Positions 12,271 to 58,017 of a stretch of 64,000 bases of DNA are shown here, in pieces. This DNA comes from Permianibacter fluminis. Lineage in GTDB: Bacteria > Pseudomonadota > Gammaproteobacteria > Enterobacterales > Permianibacteraceae. The stretch lies in the NCBI RefSeq assembly GCF_013179735.1, contig NZ_JABMEG010000001.1, positions 2,542,001 to 2,606,000 of the forward strand, written 5' to 3'. The notes beneath the pieces are model-generated. The model had not been told where the DNA came from, did no database searches, and saw only the letters and a list, made by a program, of their open reading frames with translations. A program made the position numbers and the translations under genes. Positions within the stretch are counted from its first letter, which is position 1; the number at the start of each line of letters is the position of its first letter.

Positions 12271-13167
12271 GTGCCTCTCACTCCGACCAAGCATCATGAA
12301 TCACGTCTGGGCGTGATGCTCGACCAGGCGCTGTCGACGGCACTGGCACAGTTATGGTCGGCCGTAGGCGGTGCGGAGTTCATGTCGGCCGTGCTTGATG
12401 TCCTGCATGCCGTTTGCCCCATCGACTCGGGGGGGACACTGGTCTACTACCGCAATCGCCGTCCGCTCAGTTTGTTGCATCGTTTCAACCCCAGTGAACG
12501 GCAAGTGCCTGCCGATATCTATTCCACCGGCCCTTACGCGCTCGACCCGCAATATCGCCTGTTCCTGAAAGGCTGTGCCAGCGGCGCCTATTGGCTGCGC
12601 GATGTCGCGCCGGATGATTTTTACAGCAGTGAATACTTTCTGACGTTCTATTCCAAAACCGGGGTGGCCGATTCGATCGATGTCATCTGGCGCATTGACG
12701 ACGACACCGCGATCAATTTCTTTTTGCAGCGCAATGTTCATAGCAATGAATTTACCGCTGCCGATTTGGCCGCGCTGCAGCTGGTCTTGCCGATTGTCTA
12801 CGCGGCCTTGGCCAAGCATCAGCAGATGACCGCAGGCTTCTTGCAATCAACCGTGGATGACAAGACTCACCTGCAGGTGGAATGTACGCTCAACAATTTT
12901 GCCAGCTCGTTGCTGACGCCGCGGGAACGGGATGTGCTGCTGTATATGCTGCGCGGGTACTCGTCGGTGCTGACGGCGCAAAAACTGAATACCTCGGATG
13001 GTACGGTCAAGATTCACCGCAAGAATATCTATCGCAAACTGGATATCGGTTCCCAGGCTGAATTGTTCTCGCTGTTCATCAATTGCATTCCGTTCGCCAA
13101 GCCGGACGAACAGTCCGATCCGCTACAGTTTTATCAGCAATCGCAGGTGTCGGTGCTGTCGCGCTGA
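12271..13167 (+). CDS. LuxR-family transcriptional regulator, DgcR-like
   Basis: The protein has about 298 residues. The C-terminal 60 residues form a LuxR/FixJ-type helix-turn-helix (LTPRERDVLLYMLRGYSS, then TVKIHRKNIYRKLDIGSQAEL); the N-terminal two-thirds has no recognised sensor domain. The GTG at 12271 is the longest start; an ATG at 12316 is a possible alternative. It is convergent with the dgcA/dgcN-like pair, 21 bp from dgcA. In the D-glutamate pathway described in marine bacteria, a LuxR-type regulator (DgcR) controls dgcN and dgcA, and the same gene trio occurs here. The regulator role is therefore well supported by context; the ligand is unknown. Confidence 0.75.
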   Translation: MPLTPTKHHESRLGVMLDQALSTALAQLWSAVGGAEFMSAVLDVLHAVCPIDSGGTLVYYRNRRPLSLLHRFNPSERQVPADIYSTGPYALDPQYRLFLKGCASGAYWLRDVAPDDFYSSEYFLTFYSKTGVADSIDVIWRIDDDTAINFFLQRNVHSNEFTAADLAALQLVLPIVYAALAKHQQMTAGFLQSTVDDKTHLQVECTLNNFASSLLTPRERDVLLYMLRGYSSVLTAQKLNTSDGTVKIHRKNIYRKLDIGSQAELFSLFINCIPFAKPDEQSDPLQFYQQSQVSVLSR

Positions 13168-13188
13168 GTCGATTCCAATTGTTGCCCG

Positions 13189-14172
13189 TCAGCCCCACAG
13201 CGCTGGCGTTGGCGGGTAGAGCAGAAAATTGTCGCAGCGCATCGCCTGCTCGCAATCACGGCTCTGCAGCTGCGGCCCATCCAGATCGACATAACGGCAG
13301 CGCTGGCCGACCAGAAAGGCTGGCGCCATCGCCAGCGAACTGCCGCACATATTGCCGACCATCAACTCAAAACCAAGCTCCTTGCCACGCTCGACCATCC
13401 GCAGGGCCTCGGTCAGACCGCCGCATTTGTCCAATTTGATATTGAGGTAGCGATAGCGACCGCGCAGCGCCGCGATGGATGCCGTATCGGTGCAGGATTC
13501 ATCCGCCGCAAACGGAATCGGATAATCCAGATCGAGCAGGCTGTCATCGTCACCGCGTGCAACCGGCTGTTCGATCAGTTCGACATTGTTGGCACGCAAT
13601 GCCGGCGACAACTGTTCAAGCAGCGGGCGCGACCAGGAGCCGTTGGCATCGATAATCAGCCGCGCCTGCGGTGCTTCTTCCCGGACAATCCGGATGGCAT
13701 CGAGATGGCGTTCGGCATCCACCTTGATTTTCAACAGCGGCGCATGATGTGCGGCGCGCGCTTCGGCGCGGGTCTGGTGATCATCACCGAGGCCGATGGT
13801 CATGGCCGTGGTCAACGTGCGTAGTGGCGGCAAGCCGGCGCGTGCAGCGGCACGGAGCCCGGTTTGTTTGCTGCGCAGATCCCAGAGTGCGCAATCGAGC
13901 GCGTTACGGGCGCCGCCGCGAGGCAGCATTGCCAGCAGCTCTTCGGTTTTGAGTTGGTTGCGCAGCAGATGCTGAATCGCGCTGATTTGCCGCGTCATGC
14001 TGGCCGGGGTTTCACCGTCATAGTCGATGCCCGCCGCTTCACCGCGGCCCTTGTTGCCGGCGGCATCACGCAGCTCCACCTGAATGACCGGAACATCCAG
14101 CATGGTGGCGCCGGCAATGCGAAACGGCGTCTTCAGTGGCCAGTGCACCGTGCTGACGGTGCATTCCATCAT
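13189..14172 (-). CDS. dgcA: Dipeptide-epimerase-like / N-acetyl-D-Glu racemase (DgcA-like) enolase-superfamily enzyme
   Basis: The 327-residue protein belongs to the muconate-lactonizing branch of the enolase superfamily. The catalytic KxK is at 148-150 (LLKIKVD). Metal ligands are Asp175 (IIDANGSW), Glu201 (LIEQP) and Asp224 (AADES), and a conserved lysine lies in the NIKLDKCGG segment (244-252). A DxD motif at 296-298 (YVDLDGP) is typical of L-Ala-D/L-Glu-type dipeptide epimerases. The start overlaps the dgcN-like stop (ATGA). In the D-Glu pathway DgcA racemises N-acetyl-D-glutamate. Whether this copy prefers an acetylated amino acid or a dipeptide cannot be read from sequence. Confidence 0.82.
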   Translation of the reverse strand: MMECTVSTVHWPLKTPFRIAGATMLDVPVIQVELRDAAGNKGRGEAAGIDYDGETPASMTRQISAIQHLLRNQLKTEELLAMLPRGGARNALDCALWDLRSKQTGLRAAARAGLPPLRTLTTAMTIGLGDDHQTRAEARAAHHAPLLKIKVDAERHLDAIRIVREEAPQARLIIDANGSWSRPLLEQLSPALRANNVELIEQPVARGDDDSLLDLDYPIPFAADESCTDTASIAALRGRYRYLNIKLDKCGGLTEALRMVERGKELGFELMVGNMCGSSLAMAPAFLVGQRCRYVDLDGPQLQSRDCEQAMRCDNFLLYPPTPALWG

Positions 14173-15191
14173 GGCTGTACCGCCGCAGAGCGCACCAACT
14201 CATCAACCAGCGCATCGACTCCGCCACGCAGCGGATCACACACCGGCAGCCCGAGTTCACTGCGGACACGGGTGAAATAATCCTGCGCTTGCGAATCTGT
14301 GAGGGTCGATGAATTGATGCTGACACCGACGCAGCGCACTGCGCGATTGGTCAGCCGCGCGGCTTCCAGATAGCGGTCGATTGCCTGCGCCAATGACGGC
14401 AACGGCATATGCGGATAGCCCTCGATGGTGCTGCGCGAGGGATCGTGGCACAGCACCAGCGCATCGGGCTGCGAGCCGTGCAGCAGCCCGAGCGTGACGC
14501 CGGCATAGGCAGGATGAAACAGTGCGCCTTGCCCTTCGATAATGTCCCAATGTTCGGCGTTGTTTGCCGGGGAGAGCAGCTCGGCGGCGCCGGCAATAAA
14601 GTCGGCAACGACCGCATCAATCGCGATACCGGCGCCCGCAATCATGATGCCGGTCTGGCCGGTGGCGCGAAACGTCGCCGCGACGCCGCGCTTGTGCAAG
14701 TTTTCGGTGATCGCCAGCGCGGTGTATTTTTTGCCGAGCGCGCAGTCGGTGCCGACCGTCAGCAAGCGTTTACCGCTGCGCTTGAGACCGGTTCCGGCGG
14801 GCAATGGCTGGTCGGTATGGCGGACATCAATGAGCTTGACGCCATTGCGCGCGGCCGCGGCAACCAGCCGAGGAAAGGTGCTCAGTCGGGTATGCATGCC
14901 GCTGACCACATCCATCCCGGCATCCAGCGCCTGCTCGAGGTCATCGAGCCAGGCATCCGGTATGGCGCCGCCAACAGCGGCAACGCCGATGATCAGCGAA
15001 CCCGCACCATGCTTGGCAGCCATCGCGGGCGACAGCAGATCCAATCCGAGTGAAACGGTGGCCGTTGGCAGACTCCACTCAGCCAGCACCTTGTCGCGAC
15101 ACCAGTCACGCAAACCAAAGGCGGTCTTGGCATCGGATTTGAGTTGGACATCGCCGAGGTAGAGCAAATAGGGTGCGCGTAAGGTATGCAC
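14169..15191 (-). CDS. dgcN: DUF1611 P-loop protein, DgcN-like (D-Glu N-acetyltransferase family)
   Basis: The 340-residue protein has the DUF1611 layout: an N-terminal Rossmann-like domain (APYLLYLGDVQLKSDAKTA) and a C-terminal P-loop domain with GTDCALGKKYTA at 147-158. Members called DgcN acetylate D-glutamate with acetyl-CoA, and DgcA then racemises the product. The start is a GTG at 15191, giving the usual short N-terminus before the conserved PYLLYLGD block. It is first in the leftward dgcN-dgcA operon and overlaps dgcA by 4 bp. The gene faces away from the TonB receptor gene, so the 253-bp gap probably contains shared control sites. Confidence 0.8.
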   Translation of the reverse strand: MHTLRAPYLLYLGDVQLKSDAKTAFGLRDWCRDKVLAEWSLPTATVSLGLDLLSPAMAAKHGAGSLIIGVAAVGGAIPDAWLDDLEQALDAGMDVVSGMHTRLSTFPRLVAAAARNGVKLIDVRHTDQPLPAGTGLKRSGKRLLTVGTDCALGKKYTALAITENLHKRGVAATFRATGQTGIMIAGAGIAIDAVVADFIAGAAELLSPANNAEHWDIIEGQGALFHPAYAGVTLGLLHGSQPDALVLCHDPSRSTIEGYPHMPLPSLAQAIDRYLEAARLTNRAVRCVGVSINSSTLTDSQAQDYFTRVRSELGLPVCDPLRGGVDALVDELVRSAAVQP

Positions 15192-15444
15192 GGCAAATTC
15201 TGCAAAGCAAAACAGGCGGCTAACTTAATCCGATCACGTTGGCTTGGCAGCGTTTACCGTCGGCAAATTCGCTCGACTACCGCCAACTGGGTAAGCCGAC
15301 GTGCGCAGCCGCAGCCTGTGGCCTGTCAACCTACCTCTAACGGGATATATGGCCGTTTGCAGGTAAGCGGTACCGTGCTGGCGAAGCTGCACCGGCCGAC
15401 GTGGACACAAGGCCGGCAATCACAATAAAAGTGGGGGATAGGTG
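15192..15444. promoter_or_regulatory. Divergent promoter region between the dgcN-like gene and the TonB receptor
   Basis: This 253-bp gap separates two divergent operons of one putative pathway. A short inverted pair CGTCGGC (about 15258) / GCCGACG (about 15295) is present and might be an operator for the nearby LuxR-type regulator, but it is too short to be convincing. No gene is seen. Confidence 0.45.
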
Positions 15445-18387
15445 ATGGCGAAGGCAAACCAGAAAGTGCTGCATCGTTCGTTGTTGGCGGCAGCGGTTGG
15501 CGCGGTACTCAGTTGCAGCCCGATGGTGTACGCCGTCGGCGAAGTAAACGGCGGCGTGAACGGCGTCGTGCTCGCCGATCAGGCCGAACTCGATGGCGCC
15601 ACCATCACTCTCACCCACAAGCAAACCGGCCTCACCCGTACGGTAAAGTCCGATGCCACCGGCCAGTTCCGGATAAATCAGTTGCCGATTGGCGAATACA
15701 CCGTCACGGTCGAAAAAGATGGCTACAGCAGCGCACCTCTGAATCTGGCGGTAAGCATCGGTAGCGGCACCTCGGTGGTGCTTGAGATGCAGGCCGCCGG
15801 TGCCGAGCGGGTCGAGGTGATTGGCAGCCGGGTCTCCCGTTTTGACATGGAGTCCACCGACAGCGGCCTGACCATTTCCGAGGTTGAGTTCGACCGGCTG
15901 CCAGCGCTGCGTGACATCAACAAGATCGCGCTGTTGGCGCCGGGCGTGTCCGAGGCCGACAATGATTTTGATGGCACTCCGGTGTTCAGCGGCGCCAGCG
16001 CAGCCGAAAACGTTTACTACATCAACGGCATGAACCTGACCGACTTCCGCTACGGCTGGGGCGGCTCAGAAGTGCCGTTCGAGTTTTTCAAGGAATTTCA
16101 GGTCAAGACCGGTGGCTATTCGGCAGAGTTCGGTCGCTCCGCTGGCGGTGTTGTCAATGCCGTTTCCAAGAGCGGGACCAATGAGTGGACCGCTGGCGCC
16201 AATCTTTACTGGTCGCCGAAGCGTTGGCAGGAAAAAAAGCGGGATGTCTATAACGCTGATGGTTTTCTGGTCGATTTCAACAGTGAAGATTCCGTTGACG
16301 ATCGTGAAATGAATATTGAGGTGGGCGGTCCGCTCATTCAAGATAAATTGTTTTTCTACGGCCTATACAATCCACGCTCGATCAAAGAGGATGACTATCA
16401 AAATGGCTATTTTGACAGAATAGAAAGGAAGGACGCCTTTTGGGGCGCCAAGCTGGACTATTTCATTTCCGATAACCATCATCTTGAGTACACGGCATTT
16501 TCCAACGAGGATACTGCCGAGTACGCGGAAAGTAACTACAGCAATGGTGCTGGACAGATAGCGGATTTTCGCGGAAATCTAAGGAAGATTAGCGGTGGAT
16601 TCAACCAGATTCTGCGCTATGTTGGCGTGTTCGCCGATGTGTTTACGGTTTCTGCACTTTGGGGCAGAACTGAAGCAGACCTGACCTCAACCTCCGGTTC
16701 CGCAGATCAACTACCTGTTATCAATTACTCAACGGACGGTGTGAATTATATTCCGCTCGGTGGTTGGGTGACGACAAGTCCGACGCTCAGCGATGATGTC
16801 AGGACGGTGAAGCGATTGGACTTTGACTGGGATATCGGCGATCACACGCTGAGCGTTGGTATTGACGATGAAGAATTGGTATCTCGTGAGAATTCCAACT
16901 ATTCCGGTGGCGTCTTGTACTACATCGACGATTATGCCGCAGAAGACCCGGATGAGACCAGTCAGCTCTGGGAGCAACACAAATACGTCAAAGGCACCTA
17001 TTCCAGTAAATCCAGCGCTGTCTATCTGGAAGGAACCTGGCGGCTGGGTGATGTCACCCTGACGACCGGTCTGCGCAACGAATACTTTGAGAACCTCAAC
17101 GGCAAAGGCGGCACCTTCCTTGAAATGAAGAACAACGCCTTGTCATTGGATGATCTGCTGCTGCGCAGCTCTGATCATCAGTGGGCCGCGCGTTATGGTG
17201 TGGTCTGGGATATCGGTGGTGACGGTGACGACAAACTGTTTGCCAACGCCGGCCGCTACTTCCTGCCAGTCGCGAATATCCTGAACATCAAGCTGGCGGG
17301 CGCCTATTACCGCGACCGCACCATCTATGAATGGGATGGCCAGTTTGACTCCAATGGTGTGCCACTTCCGGGAGCGGTCATTGACGATCTGACCATTCAG
17401 TTCGATGGCCAGACTGCCGACCCTCGCACCATCGTCAATCAAGACATCAAGCCGATGTATCAGGACGAATTCATCCTCGGCTACAGCCGTCAGCTCGACA
17501 GCAGCTGGACTGCCAAGATCTCGGCCATTTATCGTGATCTGAAACGGGCCATTGATGACTCGACACCGTGCAAGGCACTCGATGCCATTGCTGCCGACCG
17601 GTATGGCTACGATCTGGATGGCGAGGGCAGCTACTGTTATTCCATCACGCCGCCCTATGTGCTGACCAATCCGGGTGAGGGCATGGATTTCTGGTTTGAT
17701 TTCGGTGAGGGTGATGGCCTCGAACATCTGCAGTTGAGTGCAGATTCTCTTGGTTATCCGGAAGCCAAGCGGACCTACCGCGGTATTGATTTGACCTTCG
17801 ATCGGGCATTCGATGGCGTATGGGAGCTCAGTGCCTCCTATACCTGGTCAAAAACCGAAGGCAACTACGAAGGCACGGTTCGCAGCGATTATCCGAACGC
17901 TGACGGCCAGGCCGGCTTTACTACTGCGTTCGATTTCTACTCGATGCTGGAGCACGGCTACGGCTATCTGCCCAATGACCGCCGGCACAAGCTGAAACTG
18001 AGTGGCAGCTATGCGTTCGCGGAAAACTGGTTAGCAGGTTTCAATTTGAGCAGTGTTAGCGGTCGGCCGATCAGCTATTTCGGCATGCACCCGAGTGACC
18101 CGAATAACCAGTACTACATCGATCTCGGCAACTTCTATGACGAAGACGGCAACCCGGCGCCACGCGGCAGCCGTGGCCGAACCTCGTGGGTGCATGTCAT
18201 CGATCTTTCTTTGCAATACTCCTTTGCAGTGGCTTCGACTGATGCGTCGGTTCGACTGGACGTAAGCAATGCGTTTAATTTTGACAACGAAACTAGTGTC
18301 TACGAGCTTGGCGACGTCAACTACGGCTCGAAATGGGAACGACAATCACCACGCACAGTCATGTTGAGTGCCTCGGTCAAGTTCTGA
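15445..18387 (+). CDS. TonB-dependent receptor with N-terminal carboxypeptidase-like domain (Oar type)
   Basis: An outer-membrane gated channel of 980 residues. Order: signal peptide (to about VYA, residue 30), a CarboxypepD_reg-like beta-sandwich (GVVLADQAELDGATITLTHKQTG through YTVTVEKDGY), plug domain (YYINGMNLTDFRYG, AEFGRSAGGVVNAVSKSG), and a long beta-barrel ending in Phe (MLSASVKF), the outer-membrane insertion signal. ATG 15445 is chosen over GTG 15442; a GGGGGATAGG site precedes it. Such receptors import large substrates using TonB energy. Its position before an exported cyanophycinase-like peptidase suggests peptide or polymer uptake. The barrel region about 16220-16640 is clearly lower in GC than the flanks. 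Confidence 0.92.
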   Translation: MAKANQKVLHRSLLAAAVGAVLSCSPMVYAVGEVNGGVNGVVLADQAELDGATITLTHKQTGLTRTVKSDATGQFRINQLPIGEYTVTVEKDGYSSAPLNLAVSIGSGTSVVLEMQAAGAERVEVIGSRVSRFDMESTDSGLTISEVEFDRLPALRDINKIALLAPGVSEADNDFDGTPVFSGASAAENVYYINGMNLTDFRYGWGGSEVPFEFFKEFQVKTGGYSAEFGRSAGGVVNAVSKSGTNEWTAGANLYWSPKRWQEKKRDVYNADGFLVDFNSEDSVDDREMNIEVGGPLIQDKLFFYGLYNPRSIKEDDYQNGYFDRIERKDAFWGAKLDYFISDNHHLEYTAFSNEDTAEYAESNYSNGAGQIADFRGNLRKISGGFNQILRYVGVFADVFTVSALWGRTEADLTSTSGSADQLPVINYSTDGVNYIPLGGWVTTSPTLSDDVRTVKRLDFDWDIGDHTLSVGIDDEELVSRENSNYSGGVLYYIDDYAAEDPDETSQLWEQHKYVKGTYSSKSSAVYLEGTWRLGDVTLTTGLRNEYFENLNGKGGTFLEMKNNALSLDDLLLRSSDHQWAARYGVVWDIGGDGDDKLFANAGRYFLPVANILNIKLAGAYYRDRTIYEWDGQFDSNGVPLPGAVIDDLTIQFDGQTADPRTIVNQDIKPMYQDEFILGYSRQLDSSWTAKISAIYRDLKRAIDDSTPCKALDAIAADRYGYDLDGEGSYCYSITPPYVLTNPGEGMDFWFDFGEGDGLEHLQLSADSLGYPEAKRTYRGIDLTFDRAFDGVWELSASYTWSKTEGNYEGTVRSDYPNADGQAGFTTAFDFYSMLEHGYGYLPNDRRHKLKLSGSYAFAENWLAGFNLSSVSGRPISYFGMHPSDPNNQYYIDLGNFYDEDGNPAPRGSRGRTSWVHVIDLSLQYSFAVASTDASVRLDVSNAFNFDNETSVYELGDVNYGSKWERQSPRTVMLSASVKF

Positions 18388-18420
18388 CAAGCCGAGCCAT
18401 CTTCCCACTCAATGCAATCC

Positions 18421-18451
18421 GATCTGGCAGGGCAGGGTGCCCCGCCAGATC
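18421..18451 (+). promoter_or_regulatory. Intercistronic hairpin before the cyanophycinase gene
   Basis: GATCTGGC / GCCAGATC arms, extended inward by GGG/CCC after a one-base bulge, lie 30 nt before the next start codon and 33 nt after the receptor stop. There is no U-tract, so it may tune downstream expression rather than terminate. Confidence 0.5.
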
Positions 18452-18481
18452 GCCCCCATCGATTTTCCGGAAACGTTTCTG

Positions 18482-20233
18482 ATGTTGAAACCGGTAATTC
18501 TTGCCGTCGCCCTGTGTGGCAGCGTTTGTGTAGCCGCCGAGAAGCAAGTCTGGCTGATCGGCGGCGGTGAACCGCTGTGTTCCAGTATTGAGCCGGAGCT
18601 TTGCCGCGCCGAGGCGAAAGCTGACGCCGAGGCATTTTTCAATCGCACCGGCGCGGTACGCAGCAAAGAGTTTCGCTATTCGGCAACAGGCTTGCAGCGG
18701 CTGCAGGACTTTTCGCAATGGTTTGGCAGCGCCGGTCAGAAAGCGGCGGATCTGGCTTTGCTCGCGACCACGGCGGGCCCGGTGCAAGGCCAGCTGCTGA
18801 GCGAAGCGGTTTGGCATAAACGGCTCGAGCCACTGAACCTGTCAGAAGATCTGCTGCAACTCTACGATGATGTTTTCGAAGTCCGTCCCGTCGACAAATC
18901 CGGCAAGACCCGCAAATCGCTGGTTTATCTCGATGGCAGTGAACGCTATGTCCAGCAGATGTTTCGTGAGTTTGTTGCTGCCGCGGCCAGCAACCCGGCG
19001 CGTAAATCGCCAGGAACCCGTGCGTCAGCAAGTCGCCCACCGAAAGACCGGCCCCGTGTCTTGTTGATCACGGCATCGTCCAACAATCCGTATGAATATG
19101 TCGATTACTACTTGTCGTTGTTTGAGCAAGCCGGGGCTGAAGCTGTGTGGTTGCCCATTGAGCCGGCATTGCCGCGCACCCGCGATTGCCGAGCACTCAA
19201 CAGCAACCGCTTTGTCTCGAACGGCGCCTTTGATCGGGCCGCGCGCTATCCCGAATTGGCGGCCTATCAGAAGCCGTATTGCGAACGGCCGGAGCGCCTG
19301 CTGGAGCTGATTGACAGCGCCGACGGTATTTTCATCAACGGCGGCGATCAGTCCCTGACCATGCGCAGCCTTCAAGAGCCGTACGGTCAATTCACCGCCG
19401 TGGGCAAACGCTTGCTGGAGCGGATCAACGCCGGTGTGCCGGTGTCGGGCTCCAGCGCTGGCAATGCCGTGCAATCCGGCAACGCGACGTTCACGCTGCC
19501 GATGATCAGCGGCGGCCAGACCCGGCACGCGCTGCAACATGGTGCGCTGGCGACGGAGCCGAATGCGCCAGCTTGTGATTTGCACAAGACTTGCACGACC
19601 TCGGTCGCCGCCGATCAGCTGACCTATCGCGCGCTCGGTGGGCTCGGCTCGTTCACGCTGGGCGTATCCGATACCCATTTTCGTGAGCGCAATCGGGAAG
19701 GGCGCTTGCTGCGTTTGTTGCTCGACAGCCACAGCCATTTTGGCTTCGGTGTAGATGAAGCCACGGTGCTGCGCGCCTTCATCCAGCCCGATGGCTCGGC
19801 GCGGCTGTCGGTGCTCGGTGCCGGCGGCGTCTGGCTGATTGATACCCGTCAGGCGACGGTTCGGCAGGGTGAATCCGATTGGACGGCGGCCGGTTTTGTT
19901 ACGACCCGCTTGCTGGCCGGCGATACCGCCAGCTGGCACGACGGCCTGCAGTCTGTGCAGCTCAACTGCCCGGCCGAGGCATCGCCAAATGCTTCCAGTG
20001 CCGTCCTCGACAACAATGTCCTCGACAGCAGTGTCCTCGACCAGAACCTCATGCCGGAGCCGGAAACCTATGTCACGGATGCCGTCCAGCAATGGCAGCG
20101 ATTGCCGTCAGATGGCGCCGTCGCAGGTTGCCAGCGCGCGGACGGCCGTTGGCATTACGCGGGCTTGCCGCTGCGCCTCCATGTGCAACAATCTGCCGCC
20201 TCACGCACTGCAATTTCCGAGGCGACACCATGA
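18482..20233 (+). CDS. Exported cyanophycinase-family serine peptidase (S51)
   Basis: The 583-residue protein starts with a clear signal peptide (MLKPVILAVALCGSVCVAA). The following QVWLIGGGE and the central FINGGDQSLTM are S51/cyanophycinase fingerprints. The nucleophile elbow G-S-S-A-G lies at 323-327 with Ser325 the likely nucleophile. Cyanophycinases cut multi-L-arginyl-poly-aspartate to beta-Asp-Arg dipeptides; exported forms (CphE type) allow use of external polymer. ATG 18482 is chosen for the signal peptide; the frame runs up to 18368. The stop overlaps the permease start (ATGA). The protein is longer than typical cyanophycinases, with a 15-bp tandem repeat near the C-terminus. A different iso-peptide substrate is possible. 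Confidence 0.82.
   Translation: MLKPVILAVALCGSVCVAAEKQVWLIGGGEPLCSSIEPELCRAEAKADAEAFFNRTGAVRSKEFRYSATGLQRLQDFSQWFGSAGQKAADLALLATTAGPVQGQLLSEAVWHKRLEPLNLSEDLLQLYDDVFEVRPVDKSGKTRKSLVYLDGSERYVQQMFREFVAAAASNPARKSPGTRASASRPPKDRPRVLLITASSNNPYEYVDYYLSLFEQAGAEAVWLPIEPALPRTRDCRALNSNRFVSNGAFDRAARYPELAAYQKPYCERPERLLELIDSADGIFINGGDQSLTMRSLQEPYGQFTAVGKRLLERINAGVPVSGSSAGNAVQSGNATFTLPMISGGQTRHALQHGALATEPNAPACDLHKTCTTSVAADQLTYRALGGLGSFTLGVSDTHFRERNREGRLLRLLLDSHSHFGFGVDEATVLRAFIQPDGSARLSVLGAGGVWLIDTRQATVRQGESDWTAAGFVTTRLLAGDTASWHDGLQSVQLNCPAEASPNASSAVLDNNVLDSSVLDQNLMPEPETYVTDAVQQWQRLPSDGAVAGCQRADGRWHYAGLPLRLHVQQSAASRTAISEATP
20003..20047 (+). repeat. Three tandem 15-bp repeats inside the cyanophycinase gene
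   Basis: GTCCTCGACAACAAT, GTCCTCGACAGCAGT and GTCCTCGACCAGAAC follow one another and encode VLDNN-VLDSS-VLDQN (residues 508-522). The frame is kept, so copy number could vary without loss of the protein. Confidence 0.85.
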
Positions 20234-21681
20234 CGGGTTCTGCACACACACCGGATGCCAGCAAATGGCGCATGCCGGACACCCTGCTGATTGTTTTTTC
20301 CGTTTTGCTGATTTCGGCATTGCTGACTTTTGTTCTGCCGCGCGGCCAGTTTGATACCACGCTCGATCCGGCGACCGGTCGTCAGTTGCTGCAAGCCGAA
20401 AGCTTTCGCACCGCCAACGGCGGCGAGCCGCAACCGGTCGCGCTATTTGTTGACGGCGAAAACACCGGATTGCTCAGCGCTTTTTTTGACGGCATGACGT
20501 CGGGCTCACGCAATGGCTCGGCGATCGGCGTCATCGTGTTCATCCTGATCGTTGGTGGCAGCTTTGGTGTGCTGATTCGCACTGGCGCCATCGATGAAGC
20601 TTTGAAGTTGCTGATCGGTCGCATGCAGCACCGCGCACGACTTTTGCTGCCGGTGATGGCCGTGCTGTTCTCGCTGGGTGGTGCGGTTTTTGGCATGAGC
20701 GAGGAGGCCATGGCGTTCGCCATGTTTTTGGTGCCGCTGGTGCGCATGCTGGGCTATGACGCCATCACCGGCGTCTTGCTGACCTATGGCGCCACCCAAG
20801 TCGGGTTTGCCACCTCGTGGATGAATCCGTTTTCGGTGGCGATCGCGCAGAGCATTGCCGGATTGCCGCCGCTGTCTGGCGCCGGCTTTCGCTTGACCAT
20901 GTGGGTCGCGTTCACGCTGATCTATATCACCTGGTTCATGTGGCGGGCCGAGCGGCTGCGCAAATCGGCAACCGAGCAGCCGCTGGTCGGTGCGCTGGAG
21001 CATGCTTTCAGTCGCGGTCATCTGCTGGTGGTTCTGACGCTCTTTGTCGGCATGGTGTGGATTATCTGGGGCGTCATCGTCAAGGGCTATTACCTGCGCG
21101 AACTCGCGACCCAGTTCTTCGTGATTGCAATCATTGCGCTGACCATTGGCAGCGTGTTCAAACTCAATCGCGCTGGCGTCAATGATTACGTCGCGGCATT
21201 CAAGGATGGCGCCAGTCAATTGCTGCCGGCCGCGTTGGTGGTCGGTGTTGCCCAAGGCATCATCCTGATGCTGGGCGGTGCCAGCCCGGACAAACCCACT
21301 GTTATCAATACGCTGCTGCATCATGCCGGTGAAGCCATTTCCGGGCACGGCACCATGTTCTCGGCGCAGGCGATGTTGGTCTTCCAAAGCGGCTTCAATT
21401 TCTTTGTTACCTCCGGTTCGGGTCAAGCCGCGTTAACCATGCCGCTGATGGCGCCGTTGGCCGATTTGGTGAATGTTTCGCGGCAGGTGGCGGTATTGGC
21501 ATTCCAGTTGGGCGATGGTCTTGCCCATCTTTTTTATCCAACCTCGCCGGCATTGATGGGGACTTTGGCGATTGCCGGAGTCGAGTTTCTTGCCTGGCTG
21601 CGCGCCATGTGGCCGCTGTGGATTTTGCTGACGGTGATCAGCATGAGCACCATGGCCATCGCGGTCTGGACCGGCTTTTGA
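20230..21681 (+). CDS. YfcC/DcuC-superfamily membrane permease
   Basis: The 483-residue protein has about 11-12 hydrophobic helices and begins with MPDTLLIVFSVLLISALLTFVLPRGQF, the typical first helix of YfcC-family carriers. It has a periplasmic insertion after helix 1. Later motifs are GMSEEAMAF, GFATSWMNPFSVAIAQ and FFVTSGSGQAALTMPLMAPLAD. YfcC proteins are often annotated as basic amino acid or dicarboxylate carriers; no substrate is proven by sequence. The start overlaps the cyanophycinase stop by 4 bp, so the two are translated together and the permease probably takes up the products, such as Asp/Arg dipeptides. Confidence 0.85.
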   Translation: MTGSAHTPDASKWRMPDTLLIVFSVLLISALLTFVLPRGQFDTTLDPATGRQLLQAESFRTANGGEPQPVALFVDGENTGLLSAFFDGMTSGSRNGSAIGVIVFILIVGGSFGVLIRTGAIDEALKLLIGRMQHRARLLLPVMAVLFSLGGAVFGMSEEAMAFAMFLVPLVRMLGYDAITGVLLTYGATQVGFATSWMNPFSVAIAQSIAGLPPLSGAGFRLTMWVAFTLIYITWFMWRAERLRKSATEQPLVGALEHAFSRGHLLVVLTLFVGMVWIIWGVIVKGYYLRELATQFFVIAIIALTIGSVFKLNRAGVNDYVAAFKDGASQLLPAALVVGVAQGIILMLGGASPDKPTVINTLLHHAGEAISGHGTMFSAQAMLVFQSGFNFFVTSGSGQAALTMPLMAPLADLVNVSRQVAVLAFQLGDGLAHLFYPTSPALMGTLAIAGVEFLAWLRAMWPLWILLTVISMSTMAIAVWTGF

Positions 21682-21698
21682 CGGGATCGAGCATTCTG

Positions 21699-22877
21699 AT
21701 GATTACCCAACTGAAGAACATGGAGTGCTACGCCCCGGCTGCTCTCGGCAAGGTGGATGTCCTGATCAGTGGCGGCAGCATTGCTGCAATGGCTGCCGGT
21801 ATCGATATTCACGGTAGCGCGGTACAGGTTGTCGACGCACCGGATTGCCTTGTCGTGCCCGGCTTTGTCGATTCGTTGGCGCATATTATCGGCGGTGGTG
21901 GTGAAGGCGGTTTTCGCAGCCGCACCTCGGAGCTGCGGGTTGATGATGCCATCCGTGCCGGTGTGACCACGTTGGTCGGCGTGCTCGGCACGGACGCGGT
22001 GACGCGCACGCTGAGCAATCTGCTGGCCAAAGCGCGCGCACTGGATGAAGAAGGATTGACCTGCTTTTGCCACACCGGTTCGTATCAAATTCCGGCCCGG
22101 ACCTTGATGCGTGATGTCATGGAAGACTTGGTGCTCATCGACAAGTTCATCGGCGTCGGCGAGGTAGCCATTGCCGATCACCGTTCGTCGCAGCCGAGTC
22201 CCGATGAAATCAAGAAGCTGGCTTCGCAGGCGCGCGTGGGTGGCATGCTCGCCGGCAAGGCCGGCATTGTCAGCGTCCATGTGGGCGCAGCGTCGGCAGG
22301 TGTTGCGTTGCTGGAGCAGGTGGTCGCCGAGAGCGATATTCCTATCAGCCAGTTCTATCCCACGCACATGAATCGCAATCAGCGTTTGCTCGAACAAGGC
22401 TTTGGCTTTGTCCAACAGGGCGGCTATATCGATTTCACCACCAGCACCACCGCGCAGGAACTTGCCAGCGGTGAAATCAAATGCTCGCGGGCACTGAAGC
22501 TGGCGCTGGAGAACAGCGTTGACGTCAATAACATTACGTTCTCGTCCGACGCCAATGCTTCACTGCCGCTGTTTGACGAGCGCAATGCCTTCATTGGTCT
22601 GGGCGAGGGGAGAATTGCCAGCCTGTTCGAGGAGGTGGTGGATGCAGTCAAGCTCGAAGGCATTGCGCTGGAGACTGCGCTACGCGTCATCACCTGCAAC
22701 CCGGCCGCAATTCTGAAGCTGCCGCGAAAAGGTCAGCTGCGGGTCGGCAGTGATGCCGATCTGTTGCTGCTGGATCGTGACAGCCTGCGCATTCGCGCGG
22801 TCATGGCGGGCGGCCGCTGGCTCTACGCCGAACCGGAGCTGTCGCTACCGGTAACGCGCACCTCGCTGTTTATCTGA
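21699..22877 (+). CDS. iadA: Isoaspartyl-dipeptidase-like amidohydrolase with altered metal site
   Basis: The 392-residue protein aligns along its length with IadA, which hydrolyses beta-aspartyl dipeptides. IadA residues are kept: His62 (AHIIGGGGE), Glu69, Tyr129 (TGSYQIPART), Glu155 (GVGEVAIADHRSS, where E. coli has the carboxylated Lys and other members Glu), His194, His223 (PTHMNRN) and catalytic Asp284 (SSDANAS). The first His of the metal-binding HxH (QHVH in E. coli) is Leu60 here (D-S-L-A-H). Either a variant subfamily or a weakened enzyme results. It lies 17 bp after the permease gene, last in the operon; the gene symbol indicates family only. Confidence 0.8.
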   Translation: MITQLKNMECYAPAALGKVDVLISGGSIAAMAAGIDIHGSAVQVVDAPDCLVVPGFVDSLAHIIGGGGEGGFRSRTSELRVDDAIRAGVTTLVGVLGTDAVTRTLSNLLAKARALDEEGLTCFCHTGSYQIPARTLMRDVMEDLVLIDKFIGVGEVAIADHRSSQPSPDEIKKLASQARVGGMLAGKAGIVSVHVGAASAGVALLEQVVAESDIPISQFYPTHMNRNQRLLEQGFGFVQQGGYIDFTTSTTAQELASGEIKCSRALKLALENSVDVNNITFSSDANASLPLFDERNAFIGLGEGRIASLFEEVVDAVKLEGIALETALRVITCNPAAILKLPRKGQLRVGSDADLLLLDRDSLRIRAVMAGGRWLYAEPELSLPVTRTSLFI

Positions 22878-33310: not shown

Positions 33311-35482
33311 CTAGGGCGCCTTCGGGTATTTGATGGTCATTTCTTTCAACAGATTATCGGCGTGATCCACCTCTTGCATGATCCACAGCATGTAGCGGAT
33401 ATCGACATGAATGGCGCGGGTGATCGCCGGATCGAAATACCAGTCCTTGGTGATCGATTCGTAAGTGGAGTCAAAGTTGAGGCCGACCAATTCACCGCGG
33501 GCATTCATGACCGCCGAGCCGGAGTTGCCGCCGGTGGTATCGGCGCTGCTGAGGAAATTGACCGGTACGGTTTTCAGCACCGGATCACGGAACGGGCCAT
33601 AACGGCCAGCCTTGATCGCCTCCTGCAGCTTCAGTGGCACATTGAAGGGTTCTTCCGCCCGGTGTTTGGCCAGCACGCCTTCCACCGTGGTAAAGGGGCC
33701 TTTGCTGATGCCATCCACCGGTGAATAGGGACCGACGCTGCCGTAGCTGATTCGCAACGTGGAATTGGCATCCGGGTAGACCGGTTTGCCCTGCGATTTT
33801 TTCCAGGCGATCACCGCTTGCATATAACGCGGTGTCAATCGGTCGAATTCGCCGTCAATTTCCTTGCGTTGATCTTCCAGTGCCATAGCGGTGTCATAGA
33901 GCAAAGCCGCCAACCGGATCAAACCGTCTTTGCTGTTTTCGAACTGGCTGAGCGGTTGGCCAATCCAGCCCAGCCGCTTGCTGGTGTCGGCAAGTTCGGT
34001 GCCGCGATACAGCGCGGTCAGCCGGGCATCCAGATCCGAGCCGTTCGGCAACTGCTGATCGAAACCTTGGATGCGATCTTCAATCGGCAAACTGTAATAG
34101 CGCTTCAGTGAGGCTTGCCAGCGGGTGAAATCCACCTGAGCCACCAACGATTGCTCCAGACGGCTCAGGCGGGCGCGGATAAACGGCACATCGCGATCCT
34201 GATAACCGGGCTCGCGCTCGGCATCCGGCTTCTGGCTTTCCTTGGCCAGTCGGTGCAAGGTCATGGCGGCGCGCAGCAGCTCGCTGCCAGTGGCTTTTGA
34301 GAAGGCAAATTCCTGTCGGGTAATGACTTGATCGGCGGCAATCAATTCGTCGAGTTCATTGAGCAACTGCTGATTGCTCTCGGCATCTTTCTGTTTGCCA
34401 AGCCAACTGCGAAATGCCAGATCCTGTTTGTCCTTGATGGCCGCTATGTCTTTGCGGGCAAAGCCGTCGAGCAGGCCTTGCAGTTTCTTCATCCGGTTAT
34501 TGATGGACTTGACGGTGCTGGCGTAGCGGACCGGCCACTCGGCGTTGATACCGGTCGCTGCGGCGATGACGGCAAGGTCGGCTTCGTATTCCTGCACGCG
34601 CGCCGGATAGTCGATGTCGCGGGCAAAACGGATTTCGTTCGGCAGTTTGTAGCGGTTGGTGCGGCCGGGATAGCCCGCCAGCAGAATCGGATCGCCGTTC
34701 TTCAAGCCTTCGGCGGAGACCACGAGAAAATCTTTCGATTGATAAGGCACGTTGTCCGGCGAGGGATCGGCGGGCTTGCCGTCCTTGCCGACATAGGCGC
34801 GCAGAAAAGAAAAATCACCGGTGTGGCGCGGCCATTCAAAATTGTCGATGTCGCCGCCGTAATTGCCAATCATTTCCGCCGGCGCATAAACCAGCCGAAC
34901 ATCGCGAATCATCAGCTGCCGAATCCGGTAATACTCCAGACCACGGTGAAAGCTCGGCACCGAGCAGCGATAGGCCGGATCTTTTTCGCAATCGGCGATC
35001 AGCGCTTTGATGCGAGTCTGAATGGCTTCCAGCCGGGACTTGCCGGTCAGTGTGGCATCAAGACCTTTGAGGATTTTGTCGGTGACGTTTTCGACTCTGT
35101 CGGTGACGTAAATCCGTTCGTTCGGGCCGGCTGCCAGTTCCTCGGCGCGCGTGTTGGCCAGAAAGCCGGTCGCCAACAGATTGCGTTCAGCCGTTGAGTT
35201 GCGCTGGATGGCACCGTAAGCGCAGTGATGATTGGTGACCACCAGCCCCTGCGGCGACACAAACGAAGCCGAGCAACCACCCGTTGAAATGATTGCGCTC
35301 ATCGGCGGCTTGCCGAGGTCGGCCAGTTTTTCTGCCGGAATCGTGATGCCGATTTGCTTCAGTTCGGTTTTCAGCTGTAACAGCTGATGCGGCTGCCACT
35401 GGCCTTCATCGGCAGAACTGTTGGTGATGGGCAACAGCAGGGCGCAAAGCGCGACCGGCAAAGCACGAGGCAGACAGGTCAT
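33311..35482 (-). CDS. Exported S46 dipeptidyl-peptidase, DPP11-like (Asp/Glu specific)
   Basis: The 723-residue protein has a signal peptide (ALPVALCALLLPITNSSA) and normal S46 length. The catalytic triad is visible: His86 (TNHHCAYG), Asp223 (RHTGDF) and Ser654 (TGGNSGSAV). Eighteen residues after the nucleophile, at the known specificity position, stands Ser672 (LNFDSTYES). DPP7-type enzymes have Gly there, while DPP11-type enzymes that release dipeptides with Asp or Glu at P1 have Arg or Ser. This suggests acidic P1 preference. It would act in the periplasm, supplying acidic dipeptides. It shares a terminator with the GNAT gene. Confidence 0.88.
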   Translation of the reverse strand: MTCLPRALPVALCALLLPITNSSADEGQWQPHQLLQLKTELKQIGITIPAEKLADLGKPPMSAIISTGGCSASFVSPQGLVVTNHHCAYGAIQRNSTAERNLLATGFLANTRAEELAAGPNERIYVTDRVENVTDKILKGLDATLTGKSRLEAIQTRIKALIADCEKDPAYRCSVPSFHRGLEYYRIRQLMIRDVRLVYAPAEMIGNYGGDIDNFEWPRHTGDFSFLRAYVGKDGKPADPSPDNVPYQSKDFLVVSAEGLKNGDPILLAGYPGRTNRYKLPNEIRFARDIDYPARVQEYEADLAVIAAATGINAEWPVRYASTVKSINNRMKKLQGLLDGFARKDIAAIKDKQDLAFRSWLGKQKDAESNQQLLNELDELIAADQVITRQEFAFSKATGSELLRAAMTLHRLAKESQKPDAEREPGYQDRDVPFIRARLSRLEQSLVAQVDFTRWQASLKRYYSLPIEDRIQGFDQQLPNGSDLDARLTALYRGTELADTSKRLGWIGQPLSQFENSKDGLIRLAALLYDTAMALEDQRKEIDGEFDRLTPRYMQAVIAWKKSQGKPVYPDANSTLRISYGSVGPYSPVDGISKGPFTTVEGVLAKHRAEEPFNVPLKLQEAIKAGRYGPFRDPVLKTVPVNFLSSADTTGGNSGSAVMNARGELVGLNFDSTYESITKDWYFDPAITRAIHVDIRYMLWIMQEVDHADNLLKEMTIKYPKAP

Positions 35483-46124: not shown

Positions 46125-47141
46125 TCAACCTGGATGGGTCAATTCACCACGCAGGTTTTGCTGCATCCGTTGCTTGATGCTGGCCGTGTCGAGGCCGAGC
46201 GAGAACAGATAATAGAGTTTGGTCAGCGCCGCTTCCCGGGTCATGTCATAACCGCTGATGACGCCGTGCTGCATCAGTACGCGGCCGCATTCGTAGGTGT
46301 TCATGTCGACCAGACCGCGATAGCACTGGGTGCAATTGACCACGATAACGCCACGATCATTGGCTTCCTGCAGGACCCGCAGCAGCTCGGCATTTTTCGA
46401 TGGTGCATTGCCGCTGCCGTAACTCTGCAGAATCAAACCTTGCAGCGGTGGCTTCAGAAAATTTTCGATGATGCCGGCATTGATGCCGGGGAATAGCGAC
46501 ATGGTGCCGACCATCGGCGGATTCAGTTGTTGAACGCGCAGTGGTTTGTTCGGACCCGGCAGCAGCAGCGAGCGATTGACCTCGATCGAAATACCGACTT
46601 CGGCCAGCGGCGGAAAGTTGGGCGAGTCAAAGGCGTGAAAACCGTTGGCGTCGACTTTCTGACTGCGGTTGCCACGATACAGCCGGTCGTGGAAATACAG
46701 GCAGACTTCCGGAATGTCGTAATTGGCGGCGAGCAGCACGGCGCTGATCAGATTGTCGCGGCCATCGGTGCGCAACTCACACATCGGGATCTGCGAACCG
46801 GTGACGATCACCGGCTTGGCCAGATCTTCCAGCATGAACGACAGCGCTGACGCGGTGTAGGCCATGGTGTCGGTGCCGTGCAGAATCACGAAGCCATCAA
46901 ACTGATCGTAGTGATCGCGAATGTCCTGGGCGATGCGCCACCATTCCGACGGCGTCATGTCAGAGGAGTCGATCAGCGTTTCAAACTCGCGCACGACGAC
47001 TGTCGGCATGTCCTCACGGGCAAACTCCGGCATGGTCCGGATGACTTCATCGAGGTAGCCACGCACCGGCGCGTAGCCGTTGGCGGTCTTCTTCATGCCG
47101 ATGGTGCCGCCGGTGTGGGCGATGTAAACCGAACGCGTCAT
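46125..47141 (-). CDS. ansA: Type I (cytoplasmic) L-asparaginase
   Basis: AnsA hydrolyses asparagine to aspartate and ammonia. The 338-residue protein has both catalytic threonine motifs (IAHTGGTIGMKK and VILHGTDTMAYTASALSFML) and the Lys in the VTGSQIPMCELRTDGRDNL block. Without a signal peptide it is AnsA rather than the periplasmic AnsB. ATG 47141 with an AGGA site is chosen over the upstream frame extension. Its product, Asp, is shared with the isoaspartyl pathway at 12-23 kb. Confidence 0.94.
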   Translation of the reverse strand: MTRSVYIAHTGGTIGMKKTANGYAPVRGYLDEVIRTMPEFAREDMPTVVVREFETLIDSSDMTPSEWWRIAQDIRDHYDQFDGFVILHGTDTMAYTASALSFMLEDLAKPVIVTGSQIPMCELRTDGRDNLISAVLLAANYDIPEVCLYFHDRLYRGNRSQKVDANGFHAFDSPNFPPLAEVGISIEVNRSLLLPGPNKPLRVQQLNPPMVGTMSLFPGINAGIIENFLKPPLQGLILQSYGSGNAPSKNAELLRVLQEANDRGVIVVNCTQCYRGLVDMNTYECGRVLMQHGVISGYDMTREAALTKLYYLFSLGLDTASIKQRMQQNLRGELTHPG

Positions 47142-47733
47142 GTCAGGTCCTGTAAGGCGTGGCTCAGGGCAGGGGCCGGTGAAATGCGGCCGAGCCCGAG
47201 AATGGCCGCTATTGTAGCGGCCAAGGCCCAAGAAGGCTGAATAACAGGGACGGTCGGGCCAGTTTGGCACCGGCTTGGCCCGAAACAGGCTGAGTTCGCC
47301 GGAAAACGAGCCGGAAAGGGCCGCAACCCGGTGGAAATATGCCGCAACGCTCAGAAACCGCTCGCTTTTTGCGGCTCCGGCCCCTATAGTTCGCGCCCTT
47401 GCTGCGGGGCATCAAAACCGCAGCGGGTATGAGCCTCACCAATCCTCCCCCCTGTACGCGCCTCCTGGCGCCAGGTTCCAGCCAGCCCCCGCGGCCTGCC
47501 AGAACCTTGAATGACGCAGGTATCCGGCTTGGCGGCATGACGTGTTTTCGCCAAGTTGCGGATGATCTCCTCGGATCGCCTCCGGTTCCGGCTGACACAT
47601 TGACTCAAGTAAGGCAGTGGCCACCGCATATTCGCGGCATGGCGAGCGTTTGTGCGCTGAAATCAGCGTCCGCTTGCACGGCCTGAGCTGCCGATTGCGC
47701 TCCCTAGTCCTATATGCGATTGGGGGCAGGAAA
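47142..47733 (+). promoter_or_regulatory. Long leader region upstream of the DEAD-box helicase gene
   Basis: These 592 bp lie between the divergent ansA and helicase genes. Short frames here show no family features. A TATAGT hexamer at 47385-47390 could be a -10 box but lacks a convincing -35. Cold-inducible deaD/csdA-type helicase genes usually have long structured 5' leaders, so a regulatory leader is plausible. Nothing more specific is visible. Confidence 0.45.
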
Positions 47734-54709: not shown

Positions 54710-55285
54710 TTACTTGTTTATCCGATCCAGCGCGCTGGCGTTGATTGTGGTTTTCGGTAGTGGCGCCAAATACCAGTAAGCAGTTTTGGGCACAAACGCT
54801 TCGGCGGGCGCCGCATCAATGCTCTGCAGTATCAGCTCTTTTTCGGCATCGGTCAGCGGTTGATAGCCACGCAGATAATGCCAGCCATAGCCCCAGCGGA
54901 AGGTGGTTGGCCAGAATGGTGATCCGCCGGTGCGCACACCGGCCAACATCAGTTTGGCAATGGCCGGTTCGCCGACGTCGGCCACGCATTCGGCCAACGC
55001 TTCGTCGGCTGCGCTACGGTCCTCGTAGGTGCCGCCGGCCCAATACGCCAGATCGTGGGCAACACAGCAGTCGCGCCACAATTGCTGATTTTTCAATGAA
55101 CCATTTGGAAACGCGCTGCAACCATCGGTGGAAAAGGGACTCAGCTCGGCCGCGTTCGGTTCACTGCCGGAGGCTGGACGGTTAGCGGCAATCGGGTCAG
55201 CCGCAAAACCGTCCGTCACAATGCCGGCAACGGCAAAACCGATCAGCATCACGCCAAGCAATGCCGCGCTAAATCGCCATTTCAT
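54710..55285 (-). CDS. Phospholipase A2-like exported or membrane-anchored protein
   Basis: The 191-residue protein has an N-terminal hydrophobic segment (about 5-25). The middle has the secretory-PLA2 hallmark: DGCSAFPNG (54-62), then RDCCVAHDLAYW with Cys73-Cys74 and His77-Asp78, the catalytic His-Asp type arrangement. The C-terminal half is unassigned. The start overlaps the stop of the upstream delta-60-repeat gene (ATGA at 55282-55285), so the two are translated together. It probably acts outside the cytoplasm on phospholipids; activity is inferred from motif only. Confidence 0.78.
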   Translation of the reverse strand: MKWRFSAALLGVMLIGFAVAGIVTDGFAADPIAANRPASGSEPNAAELSPFSTDGCSAFPNGSLKNQQLWRDCCVAHDLAYWAGGTYEDRSAADEALAECVADVGEPAIAKLMLAGVRTGGSPFWPTTFRWGYGWHYLRGYQPLTDAEKELILQSIDAAPAEAFVPKTAYWYLAPLPKTTINASALDRINK

Positions 55286-57798: not shown

Positions 57799-58017
57799 GA
57801 CAGCTACTCCTTCAGCTGGATACGACAGCTTTCTTGCTGGGCAGATTCGGGTTGGCGGCTTATGGCCGGCCGGTATATGCGGCGGCAGCCGCAGCAAACT
57901 GCAATGACGTTAACAAACTGCCCCCACAGGGTAAAGAACCGCCGGTCTGCCAAACGTGGCCTCGTACACTTTTATACAAAGGCCTGATGGTCGTCGCCGT
58001 GCAGCGACTCGCTTAGA

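Follow-up and report, generated by a model that had tools for sequence, protein, structure and literature searches.

Cyanophycin is the nitrogen store of cyanobacteria. The D-glutamate pathway of DgcN and DgcA has been described in PMC10845958, and clusters of a cyanophycinase, an isoaspartyl dipeptidase and a transporter, found in genomes without the cyanophycin synthetase gene cphA1, are considered probable scavenging loci (PMC10206079). The latter source attributes the name "cyanophycin utilization locus" to Ben Hania et al. Here, we describe an island at positions 12271-22877 of a 64,000-nucleotide stretch of Permianibacter fluminis DNA (contig NZ_JABMEG010000001.1, positions 2,542,001 to 2,606,000; this whole stretch is called the window, and its numbering is used throughout). 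We consider it probable that the rightward operon of this island serves cyanophycin scavenging under the control of a LuxR-type regulator, and that the gene pair dgcN-dgcA (dgcNA) has been placed beside the presumed operators. New with respect to the described loci are the operon's own LuxR-type regulator with twin sites, an IadA subfamily with an altered metal motif (Leu-x-His, LxH), and the dgcNA neighbor, which none of the other genomes examined has at this place.

The probable cyanophycin operon

All seven open frames of the island are present, and the gene families that the original prediction (an earlier annotation of the same DNA) had named are borne out by Pfam and NCBIfam profile scans, in which scores were compared with family cut-offs. 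The island consists of two separate units, namely the operon receptor-S51-YfcC-IadA on the one hand and the dgcN/dgcA pair on the other. The operon lies on the plus strand and is tightly spaced. It starts with an Oar-like TonB-dependent receptor (15442..18387) with CarboxypepD_reg, Plug, and OMP_b-brl_4 domains, followed after 94 bp by a long S51 peptidase whose start resembles a signal peptide (18482..20233), a candidate CphE-like cyanophycinase. The stop of the S51 gene is overlapped by 4 bp by a YfcC/DcuC-family permease (20230..21681; YfcC score 578, cut-off 500), presumed to take up dipeptides or amino acids, and 17 bp further the isoaspartyl dipeptidase IadA of the LxH subfamily begins (21699..22877; beta-aspartyl-peptidase family TIGR01975, 468.3 against a cut-off of 331.25). 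The starts of the last three genes (ATG at 18482, 20230, and 21699) were refined by eye and are likely ones.

The S51 protein matches Peptidase_S51 with 27 bits (Pfam cut-off 23.9). In the cyanophycinase CphEal, the catalytic triad consists of Ser171, His224, and Glu251, and the pocket of Gln136, Asp222, Thr223, Arg228, Arg230, and Arg233, with the threonine replacing Gln173 of CphB (PMC3235067). All nine CphEal residues have counterparts in the window protein (Q290, S325, D397, T398, H399, R403, R405, R408, and E426), as judged from the motifs and their identical spacing, since CphEal was not among the aligned sequences; CphB structures were aligned with the window protein, which has the pocket residues known from CphB and CphE. 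The motifs GGDQ, SAG, DTHFxxRxRxxR, and DE are invariant in 18/18 aligned long S51 proteins (that of the window and 17 others). When the predicted model (pLDDT 85.5) was used in a structure search, solved cyanophycinases ranked first and PepE-type structures next; a poorly predicted linker (501-529) is followed by a C-terminal part. No cphA1 match over the cut-off was found in the genome (99.48% complete; best match 87.6 against 850 bits), which fits scavenging.

The operon, or large parts of it, recurs. Our order sample comprised 99 genomes, that of the window (G000) included, and an S51-type match was found in 23 of them, weak matches to short S51 proteins counted. Wider stretches were fetched for 18 places, and in 12 of these S51, YfcC, IadA, and a receptor-sized frame occur together (G052 contributes two of the 12, and another is a second locus of the window's own genome). 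As for the other six, four lack both YfcC and IadA and match S51 more weakly, and in two a short S51 gene stands beside iadA. The second locus (L035, G000:C1:601500-621400) is itself of the cyanophycin type. Its S51 gene runs divergently from the receptor-YfcC-IadA genes, and its IadA, likewise of the LxH type, clusters with a copy from the same genus (L033). All four receptors scanned from this divergent layout (L028, L031, L033, and L035) are of the ordinary TonB_dep_Rec type.

A second set of related loci was obtained as the best 80 of 527 confirmed relatives from an IadA profile scan of species genomes. Five of these (L053-L057), all gammaproteobacterial and three of them from Rheinheimera, have LuxR, receptor, S51, YfcC, and IadA in the order of the window, whereas two more (L052 and L058) show part of that order on contigs that end there. 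Three receptors of these LuxR-type loci were scanned: those of L053 and L054 are of the CarboxypepD_reg/OMP_b-brl_4 type, as in the window, and that of L056 has a CarboxypepD_reg match below the cut-off. A literature search joining cyanophycinase, TonB-dependent receptor, and isoaspartyl returned no paper, and one joining cyanophycin and Rheinheimera returned none on such a locus, judged by title.

Because its gene set matches the scavenging clusters of PMC10206079 and its S51 residues match those of CphE, receptor-S51-YfcC-IadA is, as far as sequence can tell, a cyanophycin utilization locus of an already described kind, in which the S51 protein is a CphE-like candidate rather than a proven enzyme. 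The same two lines of evidence support the earlier proposal that S51 and IadA, with YfcC and the receptor, serve cyanophycin use.

The LuxR-type regulator and its presumed operators

The regulator gene (12271..13167, plus strand; GerE domain, 51.4 bits) apparently goes with the operon. Its product is 65-74% identical to the LuxR proteins encoded next to this type of operon in L053-L057 and L026 (the latter being the L056 gene). Of the 98 order-sample genomes other than that of the window, only G052 has a close homolog (66%), beside its own operon, with the next best at 35%. Against the named NCBIfam equivalogs no cut-off was reached (best 41.7 against 300 bits), and nearly all of these matches are to the helix-turn-helix part.

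Two palindrome-like sites, roughly CTATYSCTAA..GRATAG, lie between luxR and the receptor gene in L053-L057, spaced 53, 54, 53, 53, and 53 bp from start to start, and the gene order there is luxR, sites, receptor, without dgc. The window has two such sites between dgcN and the receptor gene, at 15277..15294 (site 1) and 15331..15348 (site 2), both on the plus strand and 54 bp apart. Scored with a matrix built from the ten sites of the relatives, site 2 reaches 18.8 bits and the weaker site 1 reaches 12.3 bits. The firm part of the operator evidence is the spaced pair: same-strand pairs 52-55 bp apart with at least 12 bits each occur once in the window and not at all in 2.33 Mb of other loci, nor in any of 60 Markov-1 sequences, each 64 kb long.

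A distance of about 42 bp before the transcription start is a usual position for a LuxR-type activator. In 5/5 relatives, the element TA[TA][TA]AT (TATTAT or TAATAT) is found 22 nt past site 2, thus placing site 2 about 42 bp before the expected transcription start. The LuxR-type protein is presumed to bind both sites and to activate rather than repress. We know of no described transcription factor or operator for cyanophycin use, with the proviso that no literature search was aimed there; the regulator and its twin sites thus offer a candidate pair for this process that can be tested directly.

The dgcN-dgcA pair

Between luxR and the presumed operators lie dgcA (13189..14172), encoding an N-acetyl-D-glutamate racemase homolog, and dgcN (14169..15191), encoding a DUF1611 N-acetyltransferase homolog. 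Both are on the minus strand, adjacent with an overlap of 4 bp and reading away from the sites. DgcN shows both DUF1611 domains in Pfam, matches PDB entry 7xrj over residues 5-333 of 340, and is the only match at an E-value of 1e-20 in this genome. The naming of the two genes as a dgcN/dgcA-like pair holds up, with DgcA over its NCBIfam cut-off (NF042940, 404.7 against 400) and DgcN just under (NF041892, 455.5 against 480). For the deacetylation of N-acetyl-L-glutamate, one ArgE-family match over the cut-off in this genome is a putative candidate.

The original prediction had gone further and joined the dgc pair with the cyanophycin genes in one scavenging route, expecting the genes to co-occur elsewhere. 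For S51, YfcC, and IadA this is what the 12 of 18 stretches show, whereas the dgc pair fails to follow: neither DgcN nor DgcA was found in any of the 80 related IadA loci (tblastn at 1e-10; contig ends truncate several of them). DgcN was detected at 1e-20 in 20/99 genomes of the order sample, and seven (G000, G005, G030, G041, G058, G072, and G078) have both DgcN and S51-type matches. Only in G000, the window's own genome, do the two stand side by side; the remaining six are draft assemblies in which they fall on separate contigs. DgcN was found in neither of the sampled genomes of the same genus and the same family (G001 and G002). Conserved co-occurrence is thus largely lacking for the dgc pair, and a conserved unit of S51, IadA, YfcC, and dgc is not supported by these genome and locus counts. 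A literature search joining cyanophycin with DUF1611 gave no paper.

What does go with DgcN was assessed in 19 fetched loci, namely all 12 places of the class sample outside the window's genome and 7 of the 20 such places of the order sample (in the class sample, DgcN was detected at 1e-40 in 12/369 genomes, that of the window among them). Neighborhoods were displayed for 17 of the 19 (L136 and L138 were left out). A DgcA-family frame is present in 16/19 loci and adjoins DgcN in 14/17 displayed ones. The Aminotran_4 family, for which one member was scanned, is present in 8/19 (six within the displayed 6.5 kb), and the LysR-regulator family, likewise by the scanned member, in 6/19 (five within the displayed 6.5 kb). 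LuxR, receptor, S51, YfcC, and IadA were never found within 6.5 kb of DgcN in the 17 displayed loci. Since DgcA is usually at DgcN loci and the other island genes are never nearby, dgcN-dgcA is, on these neighborhoods, a portable two-gene module. Its arrival in the window is explained most simply by insertion rather than by loss in all relatives. Base composition gives no clue to its origin: the G+C content of the pair (about 0.63) is above that of the flanks, and the S51-YfcC stretch is equally high (0.62-0.63).

Did the module come under the control of its new neighbor? With both sites retained in the window, between dgcN and the receptor gene, dgcNA directly adjoins the presumed LuxR operators and may plausibly have been drawn into LuxR regulation in this genome. 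There is about an even chance, in our estimate, that the pair is instead an unrelated passenger, which landed between luxR and the receptor gene by chance and, under its own control, serves D-glutamate catabolism alone. Such an origin would agree with the finding of dgc together with cyanophycin genes in no other genome examined, with the lack of other island genes in the displayed DgcN neighborhoods, and with the lack of any matrix site of at least 12 bits between dgcN and site 1. On the other hand, only 85 bp separate the start of dgcN from site 1, which puts the promoter of this gene inside the presumed LuxR region or right beside it, and both sites have been kept. Either way, a portable D-amino-acid module beside the presumed control sites of another operon is a testable case.

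IadA of the LxH type

The IadA of the window has Leu60 (codon TTG, 21876-21878) at the position of E. coli His68, giving Leu60-x-His62. The first metal motif reads Leu-x-His in 25 and His-x-His (HxH) in 55 of the best 80 loci, figures that are no fair census of the two types because the query profile is itself LxH. By title, the 25 LxH loci are all gammaproteobacterial and the HxH loci all belong to Bacillota except L069. This locus is titled "Pseudomonas sp. ISL-84", and its IadA falls among Bacillus in the tree; it is probably mislabeled or contaminated. A long S51 gene is present in 22 of the 25 LxH loci (not in L110 and L131; L120 is cut by a contig end).

In the full set of rows, with the window and the order-sample loci added, 38 are LxH and 57 HxH; two of the HxH rows (L042 and L043), beside short S51 genes, come from the same order. 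A single branch of the tree (support 99/85), with a single change, splits the 38 from the 57. Because the characterized enzymes have HxH, the change from His to Leu is, in terms of sequence, the loss of a ligand. Eleven other active-site positions are unchanged in 38/38 LxH rows (H70, the bridging K162/Glu, H201, H230, D285, E77, T106, Y137, R169, R233, and S289 in E. coli numbering); all of them except D285, Y137, R169, and S289 are named as IadA residues in PMC10206079. Specific to the LxH type is Cys124 (codon 22068-22070), present in 35/38 LxH against 4/57 HxH rows, which could possibly compensate for the lost histidine.

It is improbable, in our view, that the LxH proteins are inactive as dipeptidases and have a binding or regulatory role, with another enzyme splitting the dipeptide. 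The metal ligand is indeed absent in 38/38 rows of the clade, and the mycobacterial N-acetylglucosamine-6-phosphate deacetylase (NagA) studied in PMC6016474 needs both metals for efficient catalysis. Against this stand the invariance of the eleven other metal and substrate positions and the precedent of NagA from E. coli, which is mononuclear, and from E. coli and Vibrio cholerae, which have QxN in place of HxH (PMC6016474). The likeliest state of the LxH IadA would be a working one-metal enzyme. No paper came up when the literature was searched for a mononuclear isoaspartyl dipeptidase in connection with metal and histidine. An IadA clade that departs from the binuclear-metal motif would bear on how far amidohydrolases tolerate the loss of a metal ligand.

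Proposed role of the island

For the island as a whole, we propose that the exported CphE-like cyanophycinase would cleave cyanophycin from the environment to beta-Asp-Arg, and that the polymer or its oligomers would pass the outer membrane by way of the Oar-like receptor. YfcC would import either the dipeptide or its constituent amino acids, and the hydrolysis of beta-Asp-Arg to Asp and Arg would fall to IadA. The LuxR-type protein would be the dedicated activator, acting through the pair of palindromic sites, which are spaced by about 53 bp; the one closer to the operon would lie some 42 bp ahead of the transcription start. The portable dgcN-dgcA module, having come by insertion between luxR and the sites, would read outward from the 250-bp control region in front of the operon and could be switched along with the latter, which would suit life on dead cyanobacterial cells offering both cyanophycin and the D-glutamate of peptidoglycan.

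Several observations weigh against this reading. The S51 protein stays under the cut-off of the NCBIfam cyanophycinase family TIGR02069 (79.4 against 126.6 bits), for which reason we call it CphE-like only. The binuclear HxH motif (H68 and H70 in E. coli) is not carried by the window IadA, and with a metal ligand missing, its activity cannot be assumed. The loci L053-L057 are not mutually independent, L056 and L057 being close, and the predicted structure of LuxR is poor (pLDDT 37.3), probably owing to a thin alignment of 7 rows. In the control region, the window has a degenerate -10-like element (TACCGT, 15371..15376, plus strand) at the equivalent place 22 nt past site 2, and a scan for consensus promoters found none there, nor any that would serve dgcN in the 85 bp from site 1 to the start of this gene. 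A strict operator pattern, which occurs at only two places in the whole 4.36-Mb genome (both of them the proposed sites) and in none of 100 dinucleotide shuffles of the window, was drawn from an alignment including the window and thus fitted with it in view. The matrix rests on the sites of the relatives only, yet these were picked by eye after alignment with the window; it ranks sites 1 and 2 fourth and second in the window, after a top hit inside luxR (13029, 20.4 bits) and with a third inside dgcA (13439, 17.6 bits), both presumably chance hits, and single hits reach up to 22.5 bits in unrelated loci. Finally, no empty insertion site was seen in the two nearest genomes, because there, in the stretches fetched, sucD is present and neither a tested neighbor nor an island gene lies downstream of it.

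That the substrate is another isopeptide polymer (poly-gamma-glutamate or D-glutamate-containing stem peptides), whose isopeptide bonds S51 and IadA would cut and whose D-glutamate dgcNA would take, is very improbable: the D-glutamate module is present, and the S51 family includes other dipeptidases, with PepE-type structures as the next fold matches, but the S51 pocket residues are those of CphB and CphE, IadA retains its other active-site residues, and the related loci examined carry the operon without dgc.

As for cyanophycin scavenging with captured dgcNA, it remains doubtful that both of its bolder parts hold together, i.e., that the LxH IadA, as a distinct subfamily belonging to the receptor-linked cyanophycin loci of gammaproteobacteria, lost one ligand once and acts on beta-Asp-Arg with a one-metal or altered site and, in addition, that the LuxR activator captured dgcNA. 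If so, cyanophycin and D-glutamate from dead cyanobacteria would be used under one switch. The island had been held to be explained by neither known pathway alone, which loses its force when two known pathways stand side by side and account for every enzyme gene; known parts thus explain nearly the whole island, and a new "isopeptide" pathway is unnecessary.

Other genes of the window

Elsewhere in the window, on the minus strand, we noted a Peptidase S46 family protein (33311-35482), an asparaginase-family protein (46125-47270), and a large protein with DUF5122 beta-propeller repeats (55282-57897).

Comparison with described systems

The closest enzyme to the S51 protein is CphE of Pseudomonas alcaligenes DIP1 (PMC3235067), with which it shares a signal-peptide-like start, the triad, and the pocket, including Thr for Gln173 of CphB. 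Unlike CphE, which is encoded by a 1260-bp gene, the window protein has 583 amino acids, with the linker at 501-529 and a C-terminal part, and an NCBIfam score under the cut-off. Likewise, the window IadA resembles those of E. coli and Leucothrix mucor in family score and in its other active-site residues, and has a bridging Glu as in the L. mucor enzyme, but the first His of their HxH is replaced by Leu. The dgc pair resembles the D-glutamate pathway of PMC10845958 in that both genes lie side by side, in the window with a 4-bp overlap, and differs from the loci of this pathway elsewhere by its position in a cyanophycin locus, beside LuxR-operator-like sites. The locus as a whole, finally, corresponds to the cyanophycin utilization locus of PMC10206079 in the clustering of cyanophycinase, iadA, and transporter in a genome without cphA1; to what is described there, it adds an outer-membrane receptor, a LuxR-type regulator, twin operator-like sites, dgcNA in between, and an IadA of the LxH type.

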